This document shows positions 11,311 to 62,985 of a DNA stretch of 64,000 nucleotides, one piece after another. Under the pieces are notes generated by a model that saw only the letters and a list, made by a program, of their open reading frames with translations, was not told where the DNA came from and made no database searches. The stretch is from NCBI GenBank assembly GCA_023333565.1, contig JAJKFH010003463.1, forward strand, positions 1 through 64,000, written 5' to 3'. The DNA is from Puffinus mauretanicus (lineage: Eukaryota > Chordata > Aves > Procellariiformes > Procellariidae). Position 1 is the first letter of the stretch; every line of letters begins with the position of its first letter. A program made the translations under genes and the position numbers.

Positions 11311-11370
11311 CTCTGCTACCAGACCCCTGGGCTACGAGCCCAGCATGTTTCCAACCATCCTCTGCTACCA
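11311..11370 (-). other. Initiator-Met primer site and tRNA-like leader
   Basis: 11353-11370 reads TGGTAGCAGAGGATGGTT on the minus strand, a perfect 18-base complement of the 3' end of vertebrate initiator tRNA-Met, 2 bases after the LTR. The next 31 bases (11322-11352) match the sense strand of the same tRNA from the D-arm end through the anticodon arm and variable loop at 25 of 31 positions. They include a perfect CTGGG/CCCAG stem around the loop CTCGTAG. 11311-11321 then repeats TGGTAGCAGAG. The tRNA comparison is from my knowledge of the tRNA sequence. Confidence 0.85.
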
Positions 11371-16458: not shown

Positions 16459-16855
16459 TGTCGGAGTGACCCGTGGGTCGGAGTGGGAGCGCGCTCTTGG
16501 AGGAATAATGAATCTCAATATGAGTATGGTTATTCCCCGTTTATTTCGCAATATCATGCTGCTTTTATACACCAAGCACATTAACATGTACACTCACAAA
16601 TCCTCTATTGGTTAGTATAAGCAAGCATACGAGTCCCAACAGACACAGATTGGCCAAGAGCAGGTGTCCACGCGAACGCTTCCTGCACCTGCATTCCGTT
16701 ATATAATTTACTGATAACCGCATTCCCCAATCTGTTTTTCCCTACTCCACTATCACCTCAGGGACTCGAAAACTACAACTGCTCTCCGGCTTGCCTTATA
16801 CTATAACCAACAAATCTTCAGTGCTTGGAATGTTCACAGAAAAAATCCTTCCACA
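16459..16855 (-). mobile_element. 3' LTR of the young provirus (397 bp)
   Basis: On the minus strand it runs from TGTGGAAGG to CACTCCGACA. It has TATAAAA and AATAAA (16540-16545 on the plus strand as TTTATT) only ~18 bases apart, so R is short. Near the U5 end is an inverted repeat GACCC-GT-GGGTC (plus strand 16468-16479). The other LTR lacks the two central bases there, the only length difference. Confidence 0.95.
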
Positions 16856-17460: not shown

Positions 17461-20118
17461 TTATGAGAGTGCAGACTTCACTGCTCGGCTAGGCACCCAT
17501 ATTGGTCCCTTATCTATGGAAACACACATGTATCCCCTCCCATTAAATATTACCGAAACTGGGCCCAGCCACATGCCAGTGATTGGGTCTCGATACATTA
17601 CTTTTAATTTCGGAAGCGTTGTATGAGAGTTAAACTTAAGGTTTTGGTGATGTATTATAATCGATGGCTCTTCTCTGTCTCCCATCAGACACAAATAATT
17701 TAGAGTAAATAGGACTTTATGCAGTCTCATCTGCGGGTCCTTTTCTCCCTCCTTTTGCTTTGCTAGATAGTCCTTCAATACCTGATGCGTACGTTCTACT
17801 AGGCTTTGCCCTGTCGGTGAGTTTGGGATGCCTGTAATATGCTTGACCCCCCATCTCATCAGAAAAGTTCTCAACTTCTGACTGGTGTAAGCAGGGCCAT
17901 TGTCTGTTTTCAGTTGTTCTGGCACACCCAACACTGCGAAGCAAGCAAGGAGGTGCTTACACACATGATGAGCTTTCTCACCCGATAAAGCCGTGGCCCA
18001 TATTACTTTAGAGAAGGTATCTATGGTGACATGTACATATTTGAGCTGCCCAAATTCAGCAATATGAGTTACATCAGTCTGCCAGAGCTCTAAAGCCTTG
18101 AGACCTTTTGGATTAACGCCCAGCCCTATTCCAGGTCCATGATTTCCACACTTGGGACAGGCCTGTATAATAGAGCGAGCTTCATTTTCTGATAACCCAT
18201 ATTGCCTTCTTAAACCCTTTGAGTTTTGATGAAATATTTCGTGACCCTGCCTAGCTTGCAAAAATTTATCTACAGGTGGTACATGACACGCTGGACTGAC
18301 AAGATTGTCCGCTATCTGATTACCTTGTCCTAAACCCAACTCCCATTGATGGCTACGGATATGAATAACACAACACGGAGCCGCTCGCTGAGAGATGGTC
18401 GATCTTAATTGAATAAACAGTTTCCCTAGCTGAGGATTATTTGTTTCCCTAATCAGTGCGTCTTGAATTCTTGGTATAAGCCCAGCTACATATAGAGAAT
18501 CAGTCACCACATTCAAAGGATGATTAGGCCAGTTCCCTAATGCCCATACCACCGCCATTAATTCTAAAGTCTGTAAGGTATCTCCAGCTTGCCCTTGCAA
18601 AATCTTTTTACACCATTGATCTGTTTCCCACCATACGCATGCAGCTTGTCTAGAACGTTTTCCCGCATCTGTATATACCGTCAACCCCTCGAGAATCGGG
18701 CTACCAACCACTTTAGGTTTTTCTAGCCACTGATTTCGTTTTAGAATTTGCCACAATTTCCCTTGAGGTTGCTGAGAGTGCACCTTTCCACTAAATCCTA
18801 ACAGAGATTCTTGAATGGTCAGCACGTGGCGTATCCACCACTCTAAATCTACAGCATTAACAGGAATACTGATGTCTGCTGGTTCCTGTCCTGTTAGCTC
18901 TATAATTCGCGTTCTCCCTTTTCGGATTAATTCCCCTACGGCTTCAGGACGAGTTTGTATACTAAAACGTGGTTGTACCCGTAAGAAAACCCATTCCAAA
19001 ATTTGAAAAAAGGAGGAATTTGGCAAATTATCATTATTCTTGTTGTCAATGGCAGTCACGGAGTTCATTCCCTGTTGTCCCTTCATCTCCCCCTTCTTGT
19101 TTTGCCATTGACATATAACAGCAAAAGGTGATTCTTCGGTGTTACAGATAAGCAAAGAAAGTGGCAGTTCAAGGATTCTTCTTGCGGTCCAGGCTATAGT
19201 AAGTTTGTTTATAATGTGCTGTAAAGCTACGTGATGTTTATCCGTTATATGAATTTCAGCTGCAGGCTGAGTGCCACGCAGTAATTCAATTAGTGGTTTA
19301 ATGTCTGCATTGGTAATGCCAGCGCAATTGCGAACCCATTGGATGTCGCCTAAGACCGTTTGCACATCAGCCAATGTTTTAAGTGGAGTTTTTAATGCTA
19401 TTTTTTGAGGACGAATTTTTGCCTGTTCAATAGTCCACCCTAGGTATTTCCAAGGTGGAGACCTCTGGATCTTTTCTGGTGCAATTACAAGTCCCTTGTC
19501 TGCTAACATGGTTGTTAATTGTTGTATATGATGCGCTTCAAAAGGAATTTGTTGACAACACAAAATATCATCCATATAATGATAGATGATAGTTTCAGGC
19601 CATTTTTCTCTTATTGGTTGCAGCGCCCAGGCGACATATAATTGACACAATGTAGGAGAGTTTTTCATCCCTTGTGGAAGTACCACCCACTCATACCGTT
19701 CTGCTGGTGCTGCTTTATTTATCGAGGGTATGGAAAAGGCAAATCTCTGAGTGTCCTGAGGGTGCAGTGGGATTGTAAAAAAGCAGTCCTTTAAATCAAC
19801 TATAAGTATGTGCCAATTTTCAGGTAACATATTAGGTGATGGCATTCCAGGTTGTAAAGCTCCCATAGGCAACATTTGAGCATTTATTTTCCTCAAATCA
19901 TGTAATAAACGCCACTTCCCACTTTTCTTAGGGATGACAAAAATAGGAGTATTCCATGGACTGACAGATGGTTTGATATGCCCCTCTATAAGTTGTTCGA
20001 ATACCAGTTGTTTAATTATTTGCAATCGCTCTTCAGTCATGGGCCACTGGTCAACCCAAACAGGATCATTGGAGATCCATGTTAACGGTGGGTTGGGCGA
20101 TTGCTCGCCAGTGCCCAT
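17461..20118 (-). CDS. pol: Pol polyprotein: reverse transcriptase, RNase H, integrase (885 aa)
   Basis: Uninterrupted. Reverse transcriptase: first catalytic Asp at 108 (VDLKDCFF) and YMDD at 181-184. RNase H: the four acidic residues at D484 (VYTDAG), E519, D540 (VVTDS) and D604. Integrase: zinc finger H626, H630, C654, C657, then D682 (LWQTDVTH), D739 (KTDNGPAY) and E775 (SLVERTH), with exactly 35 residues between the last two; a C-terminal domain ends the protein. All catalytic positions I can check are present, so the enzymes may work. It would be made by frameshift from pro, and the ATG at 20118 is just the first Met after the junction. Pol shares the gag phase and overlaps nothing else. 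The protein copies the element RNA into DNA and inserts it in the genome. Confidence 0.95.
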   Translation of the reverse strand: MGTGEQSPNPPLTWISNDPVWVDQWPMTEERLQIIKQLVFEQLIEGHIKPSVSPWNTPIFVIPKKSGKWRLLHDLRKINAQMLPMGALQPGMPSPNMLPENWHILIVDLKDCFFTIPLHPQDTQRFAFSIPSINKAAPAERYEWVVLPQGMKNSPTLCQLYVAWALQPIREKWPETIIYHYMDDILCCQQIPFEAHHIQQLTTMLADKGLVIAPEKIQRSPPWKYLGWTIEQAKIRPQKIALKTPLKTLADVQTVLGDIQWVRNCAGITNADIKPLIELLRGTQPAAEIHITDKHHVALQHIINKLTIAWTARRILELPLSLLICNTEESPFAVICQWQNKKGEMKGQQGMNSVTAIDNKNNDNLPNSSFFQILEWVFLRVQPRFSIQTRPEAVGELIRKGRTRIIELTGQEPADISIPVNAVDLEWWIRHVLTIQESLLGFSGKVHSQQPQGKLWQILKRNQWLEKPKVVGSPILEGLTVYTDAGKRSRQAACVWWETDQWCKKILQGQAGDTLQTLELMAVVWALGNWPNHPLNVVTDSLYVAGLIPRIQDALIRETNNPQLGKLFIQLRSTISQRAAPCCVIHIRSHQWELGLGQGNQIADNLVSPACHVPPVDKFLQARQGHEIFHQNSKGLRRQYGLSENEARSIIQACPKCGNHGPGIGLGVNPKGLKALELWQTDVTHIAEFGQLKYVHVTIDTFSKVIWATALSGEKAHHVCKHLLACFAVLGVPEQLKTDNGPAYTSQKLRTFLMRWGVKHITGIPNSPTGQSLVERTHQVLKDYLAKQKEGEKDPQMRLHKVLFTLNYLCLMGDREEPSIIIHHQNLKFNSHTTLPKLKVMYRDPITGMWLGPVSVIFNGRGYMCVSIDKGPIWVPSRAVKSALS

Positions 20119-20120
20119 AA

Positions 20121-20130
20121 CTAAAAAAGC
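20121..20130 (-). promoter_or_regulatory. Candidate pro-pol frameshift site (U6 at the pro stop)
   Basis: On the minus strand GCTTTTTTAG spans the last pro codons and the stop. The T run at 20128-20123 lets a ribosome slip back one base to enter pol, which is open through this point. It is not a textbook X XXY YYZ heptamer in the pro frame. Confidence 0.5.
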
Positions 20131-20768
20131 TTTGTAGTCAGTATTGCCCCGATCTGACCGAGAACATCACGTCCAATTAACGCTTCCAATCCTCCAGGAA
20201 GCGACAAAACATGGACCTTCAGTGTTGCCCTCTGGCCTTCTGGGAAACTCACTTGAACCGGTTTACTACTTATATATGGGGCCGAGTTTCCTCCTACTCC
20301 TGCAATCAATGCCTTTGGGGTTTCTATTTCCCACTGCAACGGCCAATTTGCTCGATTTATAATAGTTATGTCAGCCCCAGTGTCCAACATTGCATTTATT
20401 CTTATTGAAAGGTTCTCCTGACTCAAAGTCACAGTTTCGAGTGGGCGATGATCTAATTTTGTAGTGAAACATACAGCAGGCCCAGTAGAACCAAATCCTT
20501 TACACCCACGTTCTTCCCAATCTTGGTTTGATTGACTTAAAGGATTTTTAAAAGCTAATATCTGGGCTATCCGACTGCCTTTTGGGATGAAGAGAGGAGG
20601 ACTTATTGTATAGGCCATAATATAAATTCGACCGGTATAGTCTGCATCAATGACTCCAGGAATTACAATCAATCCTTTTATTCCTGCAGAAGATCGACCT
20701 AAAAGGATTCCACCTATCCTATTACTATCAGCTACTAAAGGCCCTACTGCATTGCTAGGATTTTGCAC
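20121..20768 (-). CDS. pro: dUTPase-protease (pro) of the young provirus, 215 aa or longer
   Basis: Counting from the GTG at 20768 (no ATG is available), residues 24-27 GRSS, 37-48 PGVIDADYTGRI, 66-73 RIAQILAF and 91-96 GFGSTG are the later conserved motifs of a trimeric dUTPase, the domain betaretroviruses carry in pro. The aspartic protease follows: active site DTG at 129-131, then IAGVGG as the flap and LIGRDVL as the helix before the C-terminus. The frame is open upstream of 20768 well into the 3' end of gag, so translation would enter by frameshifting, not at 20768. Relative to gag it is in the +1 (or -2) phase. It ends at a TAG inside a run of six U, where a -1 shift would lead into pol. 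The protease cuts the polyproteins; the dUTPase keeps uracil out of viral DNA. Confidence 0.93.
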   Translation of the reverse strand: MQNPSNAVGPLVADSNRIGGILLGRSSAGIKGLIVIPGVIDADYTGRIYIMAYTISPPLFIPKGSRIAQILAFKNPLSQSNQDWEERGCKGFGSTGPAVCFTTKLDHRPLETVTLSQENLSIRINAMLDTGADITIINRANWPLQWEIETPKALIAGVGGNSAPYISSKPVQVSFPEGQRATLKVHVLSLPGGLEALIGRDVLGQIGAILTTKLF

Positions 20769-20793: not shown

Positions 20794-22818
20794 CTATTGT
20801 TGTTTCCAGGTCGACCCCCAAACTTCCTTTGGTGGCAGCCGAGTGTTTTTGTAAAAACCCTGATTGCTGCTGTCGTTTTGAGGGGGCATTTGTGTCTGCG
20901 CGCGGCCTCTCCCCGCGCTCAGTTTGAAGTTTCCCGAACAGACCTTAGTAGCATGGGTATTGTTTTGACACTTATCACACCATACGGGAGCACGACAATT
21001 TCGCCTGCTATGCCCCTGTTCCCCACAACGAAAGCAGATGCCTTTAAAGGGCTGGACTATTCCTGGAGAATGTTTTTGCCTAACAACAGCTGCCAATGGT
21101 TGTACTAGTTCTTGGACAGCACTTTGCACCGCTGCTGCCATCAACTCATTTTGTTTTTGAACCCCTGCTCTTTCCACCCGAGAAAGCATTTCTTCCACTC
21201 CTGCCCCTTTGGGCAGACTGGCTAGAATGGCCCTGGTAGTTTTATTGGCGTTATCAAAGGCCAAAATTCTAAACATTTGTTGTTTATTGTCATCTCCCAA
21301 ATCTGGGTGGTTCATTACTACATCCCAAAGCCTATCAATAAAGTTGCTATACTTCTCAGTTGCACCTTGCGTCACCGAACTGAAAGAAGGAGCTGATGCT
21401 CCTGGTAAGCTAAGAAATGCATCTAAAGCAAGCTTAGAAGATAACTGTAACATATTAACAGGAAAAGTTAGTTGGACATTTATATCCGCATAACGACCCC
21501 CACCAATGAGCATTTCTGCTGTGACCCCATATAATGGATCCCCTCGTTGTTGATGCTGGGCAGCAGCATTCACTGCCCTCTGAGACCATGATGATCCCCA
21601 TAACAAAAACTGTGTAGGTGTCAACAGAAGCCTCATCAGACTTTGACAATCATAAGGACACATCAAATCAGCAGAAAAAATCCAAATAACGATCTGTCGT
21701 GAGGCTTCCGATTTAACACCATACTGCGATATAGTATTTTTAGCTTGTTGTAGAATCTTCCAATCATGCGGTTCCCATTTTCCTCGACCGTTGTCCTGTA
21801 CCACCGGAAAAGCCATGGGGCCAATGTTGGATGCAACCCCCCACTGTCCTTCCAAAATAGCATCTCGAACAATTCCTCTCCATCGGCCGGGATGGGTAGG
21901 TGCAGTAGGTCCGGAGAAACAGGGTGACAAGTCGTCTCTCGAACCGGCGGTTGACCAAGGTTCTCTTTTTTGCTGAGTCTGTGTAGTTAATTCCGTCAGT
22001 TGTTGTACAACATCTTTTAACAGCCGATTAATACTTTCTGTGGAATGTTTCCCTCTTCCGCTAGATGGCGGTGTGGCAGCGCCGCAGGAATCATTGCAGC
22101 GTGGCAAGGGGGGGTGGAGAGGGGGGGCGGTGGGAGGAGGGCGGTACATTTCCTCGCCTTGAATCGGGGGGGTGGGTGGAGCCGGCCACTCCTCCCCCTT
22201 CACGCCCCGCGGTTGCTCTTCCGCTTTTGCCTCACACTGCTGCTGTGCTACAGCCCCGGCAACTTCCGGCTGCTGTGGCGCAGATGATATTATCGGGGAA
22301 GATGGCGAACATAGACTGTCGGGCGCCTTTAAATCGTGCTCAACTCTATCGCGCAATTCGGCAACAGTCTTACAGGTGGACCCCGTCATACCCTTCACAG
22401 CAGACAGCCCAAAAAATCGCGCAAGCAGTCCCGCCTTGGATCCCATGCTCTGAGACTTTTCCGGTATGGGGTCCGGAGCCAGCATCTGAACAGCCGCACA
22501 CGCCACCTCCCGTTCAGCTTTCATAGCTTTTAAAGTGTCCAGTACGTCTCCCCACAAGTCTATCACAGACTCAATCTCCTTTTCCAATTTCTGAGAGTCA
22601 ATCTCCTTCTGTAATTTTTCATCACGTTCAATAAGCTTCTGCAACATTAGTTCACCCAGCTCCCGCCATTCAGGCACAGAAAACAACGTATGAGTGTCCT
22701 TAAACAGTCCCAAACATTGTCCTAACTCAAATAGCTTAATAAGCTGTTTCACCGTTGTCTCGATCCCTCTCTTAGAGAGTAAACCAGCGAGCAACGTAGC
22801 AGCTGCCTCACGTTCCAT
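20794..22818 (-). CDS. gag: Gag polyprotein of the young provirus (674 aa)
   Basis: Uninterrupted from ATG at 22818. An N-terminal helical matrix-like part (MEREAAATLLAGLL...) leads to a Pro-rich linker with two PTAP late-domain motifs, at residues 229-232 and 304-307, used by retroviruses to recruit the ESCRT budding machinery. A capsid region begins near residue 335 (FPVV, then HDWKILQQAK). The major homology region is at about 484-501 (QGATEKYSNFIDRLWDVV). Nucleocapsid has two zinc knuckles of CX2CX4HX4C form, C595-C608 and C614-C627. Gag builds the particle and packages the RNA. The first 33 residues are almost the same as in the fragment at 11033-11161. There is no Gly at position 2, so N-terminal myristoylation is not expected. 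Intact late domains without an env gene are notable. Confidence 0.95.
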   Translation of the reverse strand: MEREAAATLLAGLLSKRGIETTVKQLIKLFELGQCLGLFKDTHTLFSVPEWRELGELMLQKLIERDEKLQKEIDSQKLEKEIESVIDLWGDVLDTLKAMKAEREVACAAVQMLAPDPIPEKSQSMGSKAGLLARFFGLSAVKGMTGSTCKTVAELRDRVEHDLKAPDSLCSPSSPIISSAPQQPEVAGAVAQQQCEAKAEEQPRGVKGEEWPAPPTPPIQGEEMYRPPPTAPPLHPPLPRCNDSCGAATPPSSGRGKHSTESINRLLKDVVQQLTELTTQTQQKREPWSTAGSRDDLSPCFSGPTAPTHPGRWRGIVRDAILEGQWGVASNIGPMAFPVVQDNGRGKWEPHDWKILQQAKNTISQYGVKSEASRQIVIWIFSADLMCPYDCQSLMRLLLTPTQFLLWGSSWSQRAVNAAAQHQQRGDPLYGVTAEMLIGGGRYADINVQLTFPVNMLQLSSKLALDAFLSLPGASAPSFSSVTQGATEKYSNFIDRLWDVVMNHPDLGDDNKQQMFRILAFDNANKTTRAILASLPKGAGVEEMLSRVERAGVQKQNELMAAAVQSAVQELVQPLAAVVRQKHSPGIVQPFKGICFRCGEQGHSRRNCRAPVWCDKCQNNTHATKVCSGNFKLSAGRGRAQTQMPPQNDSSNQGFYKNTRLPPKEVWGSTWKQQ

Positions 22819-22967: not shown

Positions 22968-23025
22968 CTCTGCTACCAGACCCCTGGGCTACGAGCCCAG
23001 CATGTTTCCGCATCCTCTGCTACCA
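22968..23025 (-). other. Initiator-Met primer site and tRNA-like leader of the young provirus
   Basis: Two bases after the 5' LTR the minus strand reads TGGTAGCAGAGGATG (23011-23025), 15 bases complementary to the 3' end of initiator tRNA-Met. The full 18 are seen in the relative at 11353-11370. The bases at 22979-23009 form the anticodon-arm-like hairpin (CTGGG, loop CTCGTAG, CCCAG) plus GGGGTC. Read together with AGCAGAG of the primer site they follow the sense 5' half of the tRNA. 22968-22978 repeats TGGTAGCAGAG. Confidence 0.85.
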
Positions 23026-23027
23026 GA

Positions 23028-23422
23028 TGTCGGAGTGACCCGGGTCGGAGTGGGAGCGCGCTCTTGGAGGAATAATGAATCTCAATATGAGTATGGTTAT
23101 TCCCCGTTTATTTCGCAATATCATGCTGCTTTTATACACCAAGCACATTAACATGTACACTCACAAATCCTCTATTGGTTAGTATAAGCAAGCATACGAG
23201 TCCCAACAGACACAGATTGGCTAAGAGCAGGTGTCCACGCGAACGCTTCCTGCACCTGCATTCCGTTATATAATTTACTGATAACCGCATTCCCCAATCT
23301 GTTTTTCCCTACTCCACTATCACCTCAGGGACTCGAAAACTACAACTGCTCTCCGGCTTGCCTTATACTATAACCAACAAATCTTCAGTGCTTGGAATGT
23401 TCACAGAAAAAATCCTTCCACA
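23028..23422 (-). mobile_element. 5' LTR of the young provirus (395 bp)
   Basis: Identical to the 3' LTR except for one C/T substitution (in ATTGGCTAAGAG) and the 2-bp difference in the palindrome GACCCGGGTC at 23037-23046. TATA box TATAAAA on the minus strand at 23136-23130 and AATAAA at 23112-23107. Confidence 0.95.
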
Positions 23423-60928: not shown

Positions 60929-62985
60929 GTGTTTCACCACCTTCATCGTAAAAAACTTCTTCCTTATATCTAGTCTGAATCTCTCTTTTTAGAGAGTCTG
61001 AAACTCTCTTTCAGTTTAAAACCATTACCCCTTGTCCTATTGCTACAGGCCTTACCGAAAAGTCTGTCTCTATCTTTTTTATAAGTTCCTTTTAAGGATT
61101 GAAAGGCTACAATAACGTCTCCCCAGAGCCTTCTCTTCTCCACGCTGAAAAACCCCAACACTTTCAGCCTTTCCTCATAGGAGAGGTGTTCTAGCCCTCT
61201 GATCATTTTTGTGGCCCTCCTCTGGACCCGCTCCAACAGGTCCATGTCTTTCCTGTACTAAGGACTCCGGAGCTGGATGCAGTACTCCAGGTGGTGTCTC
61301 ACCAGAGTGGCAGAATCACCTCCCTCAACGTGCTGGCCACGCTTCTTTTTGTGCAGCCCAGGATATGGTTGGTTTTCTAGGCTGCAAGCGCACATTGCTG
61401 GCTCACGTCCAGCTTTTCATCCACCAATCCTTCTCCACAGGGTTGCTTTCAATCCCTTCATCCCCCAGCCTGTATTGATACCAGGGGTTGTTGCCCCAAC
61501 CCAGGTGCAGGACCTTGCACTTGGCCTTGTTGAACCTCATGAGGTTCACACAGGCCCACTTCTTGAGCTTGTCCAGGTCGCTCTGGATGGCATCCCATCC
61601 CTCAGGTGTGTCAACTGTACCACTCAGCTTGGTGTTGTCTGCAAACTTGCTGACGGTGCACTTGATCCCACTCTCTATGTCATTGATGAAGGTATTAAAC
61701 AGTACTAGTCCCAATATGGACGCCTGAGGGACACCAGTCATCATTGATTTCCATCCAGACATTGAGCTGCTGACCACTACTCTCTGGACGTGACCATCCA
61801 GCCAATTCCTTATCCATTGAACAGTCCATCCATCAAATCCATATCTCTAGTTTTGAGAGAAAGATGTGGGGGACCGAGTCAAAGGCCTTACAGAAGTCCA
61901 GATAGATGACATCCATAGCCCTTCCCATGTCTACTGATATAGTCACTCCATCATAGAAGTCCACTATGTTGGTCAGGCAAGACTTGCCCTTGGTGAAGCC
62001 ATGCTGGCTGTCTCTAATAACCTCCCTGTCCTCCATGCGCCTTCGCATAGCTTCTAGGAGAACCTGTTCCATAATCTTCCCAGGCACAGAGGTGAGGCTG
62101 ACAGGTCGGTAGTTCCCAGGGTATTCCTTTCTACTCTTTATAAAAATGGATGTAATGTTTCCCTTTTTCCAGTCGCCAGGGACTTCACCTGACTGCCATG
62201 ACTTTTCAAATATCATGGTGAGCATCTTGGCAACTACATCAGCCAATTCCCTCAGGACTGTGGGATGCATCTCATCAGGTCCCACAGACTAACATATGTT
62301 CAGATTCCTCAGGTGGTCATGAACCTGGCCTTTTCTTACAGTGGGAGGGACTTTGGTTCCCCAGTCCTGCCTTGAGGTCCATATACTCCAGAAGTGTGGG
62401 AAGAGGTTGCCAGTGAAGACTGAGGCAAAAAGCCTTCTCCTTGTCCGTTGTTACCAGTTTGCCACTTGTGTTCATCAGGGACCTTCCTTTGACCTTCCTT
62501 TTCTAGGTGACATACCTATAGAAGCCCTTCTTATTATTCTTTGCATCCTTTGCCAAGTTCAGCTCCAGCTGTGCCTTGGCCTTCCTGACACCATCCCTAC
62601 ACAATCGGGCAGTTCCCAATACTCTTCCCAGGATACCTGTCCCTGCTTCCACTGCCTGTGCATTTCCTTCTTGCTCTTTAGTTTGACCAGCAGGTCTTGA
62701 CTCATTCATGCCAGTCTCTTGCCTTCCTTTCCTGATTTCTTACACCTGGGTATCGAGAGCTCTTGCCCTCTATGGAAAGTGTCCTTAAAGATCTGTCAGC
62801 TCTGTTTTGTTCCCTTGTCCCTGAGGGCAGTTTCCCATGGGGTCCTATTGACTAACTGGAATAGCTGGAAGTTTGCTTTCCTAAAATTCAGGGTCCTGAC
62901 TTACTCTTCGCCTGACCCATATCCCTCAAGACTGTGAACTCCACCAGTGCATGATCACTGCAGCCCAGGCTGCCTGCAATCTTGA
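60929..62985 (-). mobile_element. CR1 LINE (~2.06 kb), lacking its 3' tail
   Basis: On the minus strand the order is late endonuclease/linker (62985-62500), reverse transcriptase at 62285-61833 ([54 protein letters not shown] with the catalytic Asp), 61777-61403 ([20 protein letters not shown]), and the ORF2 end at 61245-60970 ([20 protein letters not shown]). The similarity stops near 60929 at GTGAAACAC, before the usual last ~200 bases, so the 3' end is missing. Stops and shifts are present. It has the same orientation as SHB. Confidence 0.92.

Follow-up and report, generated by a model that had tools for sequence, protein, structure and literature searches.

Initiator tRNA-Met (tRNAiMet) is the primer used by copia. 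Extra contacts with the primer tRNA, or its cleavage, have been described for several elements, Ty1 and Ty3 having bipartite primer sites and copia and Ty5 half-tRNA primers (PMC5371799). In HIV-1 a tRNA-like element is found near the primer site (PBS), a hairpin that is similar to the anticodon arm of the viral primer tRNA and binds LysRS, the described resemblance lying in the U-rich loop to which LysRS binds (PMC11181671). Packaged host RNAs (7SL and others) have been described to enter proviruses by 'patch' insertion or template switching (PMC4997597). Finally, the Helenus TRIMs possess a tRNA-like sequence inside their LTRs, which according to the author shows no complementarity to the PBS (PMC10886601). 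The HIV-1 element is the nearest functional analogue of the leader described here and the capture of packaged RNA by reverse transcriptase (RT) is the nearest mechanism.

The leader in question belongs to a family of endogenous retroviruses of Puffinus mauretanicus and, in our assessment, quite probably holds a true sense piece of its own primer, the cytosolic initiator tRNA-Met, which would have been copied in, probably once, when RT switched templates, and multiplied as the family expanded. Like the HIV-1 element, it has a hairpin by the PBS, here predicted only, that resembles the anticodon arm of the primer tRNA (PMC11181671). Unlike in HIV-1, the identity is continuous from the D loop to the variable loop (and into the T stem in the copy L053) and the anticodon has been lost in most copies, the loop reading CTCGTAG in 74 of 95 leader contexts and retaining CAU in 10. 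As in 7SL-type capture, reverse transcription would have brought a non-viral RNA into a provirus (PMC4997597), but in this case the captured RNA is the primer tRNA, the proposed junctions lie within PBS/tRNA identities and the product is present in 96 leader contexts of one genome. The iMet primer is common to Ty1, Ty3 and Ty5, with their extra tRNA contacts or cleavage (PMC5371799), and also to copia; the sites in those elements are antisense and pair with the tRNA, whereas the piece found here is a sense copy. As in Helenus, a tRNA-derived sequence resides in an LTR element (PMC10886601), yet here it is not in the LTR but follows the PBS, and the tRNA it matches is the element's own primer; moreover, gag, pro and pol ORFs are present, in contrast to the non-coding Helenus TRIM. 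A virus that had captured the middle of its primer tRNA in sense orientation was not encountered among the papers listed by searches of the open PubMed Central set.

The window, i.e. the whole stretch of 64,000 nucleotides that was analysed, contains on its minus strand a provirus (Table 1) that appears, by similarity, to be a young class II (beta-like) endogenous retrovirus. Using Pfam and solved chains, the class II markers Gag p24, dUTPase-protease, class II RT and integrase were identified. The best solved-structure match of Gag was 8c9m, with HERV-K capsids next, and the best solved chains for pol were 7sr6 ('Polymerase') for the RT and 3jca for the integrase. No env domain was recovered in the eight ORFs scanned out of the nine listed window ORFs of at least 150 amino acids, and the gap between pol and the 3' LTR is around 600 bases. 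The LTRs are of the TG...CA type (TGTGG...CCGACA) and, aligned over 397 columns, show a single mismatch and two gap positions, while a 6-bp target duplication (ATCATT) flanks the provirus on either side. Given these nearly identical LTRs, the class II provirus seems to have been active recently. A second RT fragment (RVT_1, E 1.9e-10) was found on the minus strand at 61833-62285.

Table 1. Features of the provirus and of the second leader copy in the window.
Feature	Position	Strand	Details
5' LTR (TGTGGAAGG...CCGACA)	23028..23422	-	followed by TC, then the PBS
PBS1 (TGGTAGCAGAGGATG)	23011..23025	-	15 nt that pair with the tRNAiMet 3' end; comparison with the presumed tRNA end
Captured sense tRNAiMet segment	22979..23010	-	tRNA positions 16-48, 26/32 identical
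Former anticodon arm (CTGGG / CTCGTAG / CCCAG)	22984..23000	-	folding: predicted 7-bp stem, CGU triloop
PBS2 (second TGGTAGCAGAG)	22968..22978	-	absent in L052/L053
gag ORF	20794..22818	-	674 aa, Gag_p24
dUTPase-protease ORF	20121..20768	-	215 aa
pol ORF	17461..20118	-	885 aa: RT, RNase H, integrase
3' LTR	16459..16855	-	99.2% identity to the 5' LTR
Second copy, whole PBS1-insert-PBS2 stretch	11311-11370	-	
PBS1 of second copy (TGGTAGCAGAGGATGGTT)	11353..11370	-	full 18 nt
Captured tRNA segment, second copy	11322..11352	-	tRNA positions 18-48
PBS2 of second copy	11311..11321	-	

In the leader, the U5 end (…CCGACATC) precedes an iMet PBS (PBS1), which is followed by 32-33 bases of sense tRNAiMet and by a second TGGTAGCAGAG (PBS2). 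The original prediction, made from the sequence of the window, had pointed out the iMet primer site by the LTR, the primer-site-like repeat behind the insert and a perfect CTGGG/CCCAG stem, all of which were read at the places given in Table 1. PBS1 comprises 15 nt in the provirus, where CGG follows base 15 instead of the expected GTT, and 18 nt in the second copy. The insert of the provirus reads CGGAAACATG CTGGG CTCGTAG CCCAG GGGTC. The iMet PBS itself can be written as TGGT, AGCAGAG and GATGGTT, in which AGCAGAG equals the 5' acceptor strand of the tRNA, as had been noticed before, and GATGG the 5' strand of the T-stem. The PBS equals these strands because it is complementary to their stem partners.

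Local alignment of the insert with tRNAiMet was gapless, with 27 of 33 positions identical, and over tRNA positions 18-48 reproduced the 25 of 31 identities reported originally. The six differences (G22A, G24A, C33T, A35G, A38G and A44G, in tRNA numbering) are all transitions. The reference tRNAiMet, which we presume to be correct, is backed by the genome with bases 1-53 at 100% (L049) and bases 12-71 at 98% (L048), although a full-length tRNAiMet gene was not returned by the genome search. The alignment score of 20 compares to a maximum of 14 and a mean of 6.4 in 5000 dinucleotide shuffles. The best of 12 other vertebrate tRNAs scored 11, which for these tRNAs answers the concern raised beforehand that unrelated tRNAs might align as well. 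A degenerate pattern that, at each of the six differences, takes either the tRNA base or that of the virus, and thus matches both leader copies by construction, was recovered with at most three mismatches only at these two places in the window (expected 0.00). Rfam called no tRNA at the leader, even at E values up to 10, and with ARAGORN (bacterial mode) neither the window nor L048-L052 yielded a tRNA gene.

The genome (1.21 Gb in 2370 contigs) was searched with the leader of the window, scoring the best 40 of 175 candidates, and with that of L052, scoring the best 40 of 166. Exact TGGTAGCAGAGGATG 15-mers occurred 161 times, against 0 for the reversed control. We compiled 98 leader contexts, each a different 240-nt string and not a locus, of which 96 possess the insert. 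Many of them were fetched by insert-containing queries, which favours insert-bearing copies. The two contexts without insert are L157 and L162. By hand count, the 80 PBS places read, taken from 100 listed of the 161, comprised 76 with the insert, L157 and L162 without it and two outside the family (L104 and L139), so 76 of 78 family places carried it. Copies lacking the insert and with it the hairpin, anticipated as an argument against the original prediction, do exist (two of 98); the other 96 carry the insert. No relatives were found in other collections, neither among viral contigs (pattern and pol) nor among genome contigs (pattern). Two family leader copies lie around 970 bases apart on the same strand (G000:C493:289861 and 290830).

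Of the 96 insert-bearing contexts, 93 preserve the CTGGG/CCCAG stem exactly; two others form a G-U pair, and in one (L036) the stem is broken. The loop was counted in 95 contexts, leaving out L157 and L162 (insertless) and L052 (insert-bearing, without ATG before the stem), and besides the dominant CTCGTAG we found CTCATAG in 10, CTCGTAA in seven, CTTGTAG in two and two singletons; L052 adds one more CTCGTAA. The CGU that was expected to be read in place of CAU was indeed seen in 83 of the 96 insert-bearing contexts, and CAU was absent from 86. CTCATAG and CTTGTAG depart from the dominant loop at its CpG and may hence represent methylation decay and not retained anticodons. GTT follows base 15 of PBS1 in 59 of 95 contexts and is absent in 36, whereas an extension of PBS2 (or its one-base variant) to 18 nt was seen in none of the 95 contexts having PBS2.

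The copies can be arranged in a graded series. The most tRNA-like one, L052/L053 (one locus), shares 35 of 38 bases with the tRNA and reaches position 53; it retains G24, A38 and A44, extends across GATGG (49-53) and lacks a second TGGTAGCAGAG. L058 shows three differences and keeps G22, the L059/L060/L061/L064 and L054/L056/L062 types show four, and the main family, likewise the L055/L057 type, six. Such a series would look like decay away from a tRNA ancestor: as closer copies exist, the piece appears to descend from the tRNA and to drift away from it, in agreement with the idea that a tRNA half was captured. The order in L053 is TGGT-AGCAGAG-GATG-C-[tRNA 18-48]-GATGGTT-ACAAG, which places the middle of the tRNA after PBS base 11 and before base 12; PBS 12-18 are intact beyond it. 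Considering that this GATGGTT is both tRNA 49-53 plus TT and PBS 12-18, both junctions can fall in tRNA/PBS identity. Comparison of the LTRs gave no match for L053, 83.8% for L058 (perhaps another element) and 98.8% over 416 for L054, the L053 and L058 comparisons being set aside for dating.

The capture may have proceeded as follows. Minus-strand synthesis arriving from gag would first have copied GATGGTT, which forms the 3' part of the PBS. At the T-stem strand GATGG (49-53), identical in both, it would then have changed template to a packaged tRNAiMet and continued 5'-ward via the anticodon and D arms up to AGCAGAG. The latter equals PBS bases 5-11 and would therefore have been usable for second-strand transfer. 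In later priming rounds the D-arm side would have been rewritten as PBS sequence, either GATG or, in the 18-nt form, GATGGTT, and in the expanded lineages the rest of the old PBS would have been replaced by the second TGGTAGCAGAG. The ratio of 59 contexts with GTT to 36 without fits an edge rewritten by tRNA copying, and the 15-nt and 18-nt forms of the PBS seem to be alternative results of renewed copying of the tRNA 3' end. Two other sense tRNAiMet copies with CCA (L048, near a Lys-type primer site, and L050) imply that tRNAiMet does get copied in this genome. The right junction (GATGG) is seen at the single locus L052/L053, a copy that recombination could have built; the left junction would be AGCAGAG, but the D side has been rewritten. 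A putative derivation of PBS2 from GATGGTTACAAG is not accounted for by these steps, which counts against the scheme. If true, the leader represents a natural record of RT using its primer tRNA as an internal sense template, and the rule that the PBS equals an acceptor strand plus a T-stem strand suggests where inserts should occur in other retroviruses. The series would likewise be a natural one from tRNA arm to viral hairpin, along which tRNA mimics of the HIV-1 type could arise.

The most likely reading of the insert at present is that of a small RNA hairpin between two primer-site copies which is tolerated or of modest structural use. The 7-base loop of the original prediction holds as a sequence (CTCGTAG) and not as a predicted fold of the main form. 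C33T is predicted to make a U33-A37 pair and A38G a C32-G38 pair, so that the main form would adopt a 7-bp stem with a CGU triloop, and the predicted energy of the hairpin changes from -7.2 to -11.8 kcal/mol with the two substitutions. The whole 250-nt leader folds better than shuffled sequences (z -3.4), whereas a 69-nt piece alone reaches a z of -1.8, with 11 of 200 shuffles as good. In context, the predicted probability of the hairpin is high for both copies of the window, intermediate in L058/L059, around 0.2 in L053 and at most 0.03 in L054, L055 and L062. L058, alone among the folded copies, is predicted to combine a PBS1/PBS2 stem, an AUGC-GGAA-GCAU hairpin and the anticodon arm into a three-way shape. 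PBS2 of L058/L059 reads TCTGCTAGCAGA, a perfect 12-base palindrome that could serve as a dimer contact or in the stem with PBS1.

Parsimony over the 96 contexts yielded 3 changes at 10 sites for the stem, 11 at 7 for the loop, 107 at 102 for the rest of the leader, 162 at 78 for U5 and 1 at 15 for the PBS, for which the copies were partly selected. With CpG sites included, the insert (19 changes at 31 sites) was more conserved than the rest of the leader (P 0.016; P 0.008 with 55 copies) and so was the stem (P 0.009, 96 contexts). After removal of CpG sites, the difference persisted for the insert (12/28 versus 69/90, P 0.035) but was not significant for the stem (3/10 versus 69/90, P 0.06). 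In the remaining leader, 38 of 81 windows of ten sites matched the stem in conservation. The contrast between stem and loop (P 0.005) changed similarly (P 0.17 without CpG sites), as the excess of changes in the loop is mostly at CpG, at positions 34-35. The stem did stay below U5 without CpG sites (P 0.0008). The compensatory changes that had been put forward as a check were not encountered, there being no double-sided change of the stem in nine aligned rows.

Given these data, it is possible, though we hold it only tentatively, that the captured piece has been remodelled into a stable stem that just spaces or presents the PBS. The two added pairs with their gain in predicted energy argue for this, as do the low number of changes in the stem relative to loop and U5 and the TGCTAGCAGAG of L058/L059, which removes one G-G mismatch of the PBS1/PBS2 stem. 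Against it, the substitutions that create the two pairs are common transitions, the hairpin is disfavoured by L054, L055 and L062 in context (and L053 hardly favours it), and neither the comparison with the loop nor that with the remaining leader is significant once CpG sites are removed.

A different order of events, in which L157 and L162 represent the state before capture and the tRNA was joined via GCGGAA in the leader instead of via PBS identities, seems rather unlikely to us. Both read PBS15-CGGAAAC-AATTC, and when the tree is rooted at L162 the order from insertless to L053 to the form with PBS2 takes few steps. If they were pre-capture copies, CGGAAAC would belong to the old leader instead of the tRNA, and GCGGAA, in place of AGCAGAG, would form the left junction. 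However, CGGAAAC agrees in register with tRNA bases 16-23 at six of seven positions, one deletion between two AC dinucleotides would derive L157/L162 from an L053-like copy, and the GATGGTT of L053 would be left unexplained. No outgroup was found and the rooting is provisional. In a midpoint-rooted tree (95 of the 98 contexts) L052, L157 and L162 group together (support 0.98) inside the A44 clade, a misfit with L053 as the ancestral form unless the root is moved. The empty site expected from capture via the PBS identities, consisting of the 18-nt PBS followed by ACAAGCTACAATTC, was not found in a search with the last 19 bases and at most two mismatches; this search returned 12 places (two for the reversed control), and only the L053 place followed a PBS.

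Capture by template switching is likely on the basis of the sequences; a function as tRNA mimic is unproven. An extended proposal, that a PBS made up of acceptor and T-stem strands lets RT splice the middle of its primer tRNA (8-48) precisely into the primer site and that the resulting mini-tRNA leader, clearest in L058, has been kept and remodelled for priming, is unlikely in our estimate. Quite improbable is the suggestion that the arm near the PBS is a tRNA-like element under selection that binds MetRS, eIF2 or the primer tRNA, the role envisaged in the original prediction. In its favour are the presence of the insert in nearly all contexts and family PBS places (in a sample partly obtained with insert-containing queries), the near-invariable stem, the three-way fold of L058, the z-score of the 250-nt leader and the conservation of the insert relative to the remaining leader, also without CpG sites. 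On the other hand, CGU mostly replaces CAU and the loop of the main family is predicted to be paired shut, two of the 98 contexts do without the insert, double-sided changes are lacking in the nine rows, the stem as such misses significance without CpG sites with nearly half of the windows equally conserved, the 69-nt piece folds scarcely better than shuffles and the hairpin is practically absent from the predicted folds of L054, L055 and L062.

That a hairpin near the iMet PBS merely resembles the tRNA by convergence, as had been offered as an alternative, or by chance is hardly credible, since the match of AGCAGAG with the tRNA 5' end is automatic by complementarity alone but that of the 32-38 bases past the PBS is not, their score exceeds the maximum of the shuffles and other copies of the leader match the tRNA better. 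Three further candidates were rejected. Read-through of the primer tRNA past m1A58 would give an antisense and not a sense copy. In the case of a SINE insertion, inspection by eye alone revealed neither a SINE body nor a target duplication around it. Use of PBS2 as an active primer site should regenerate 18 nt, which none of the 95 PBS2-bearing contexts shows; its 11 bp can pair with the tRNA at -20.0 kcal/mol, versus -28.5 and -34.0 kcal/mol for PBS1.

Several other tRNAiMet copies were recovered from the genome. L048 (1501-1592; G000:C998:13948) contains the sense copy of bases 12-71 and ends in GCCA; it is located around 10 bases before TGGCGCCCAACGTGGGGC, a primer-site-like sequence of another element that we take to be of the Lys1,2 type. 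This may perhaps be a second, separate capture of mature tRNA. L049 (1501-1553; G000:C54:3256162-3256214) is an isolated perfect match to tRNAiMet 1-53, which ends near the end point of the L053 insert and looks like a retroposed 5' tRNA fragment. Finally, L050 (87%) and L051 (80%) are tRNAiMet-like retrosequences, the former of which, given its CCA, was probably made from mature tRNA.
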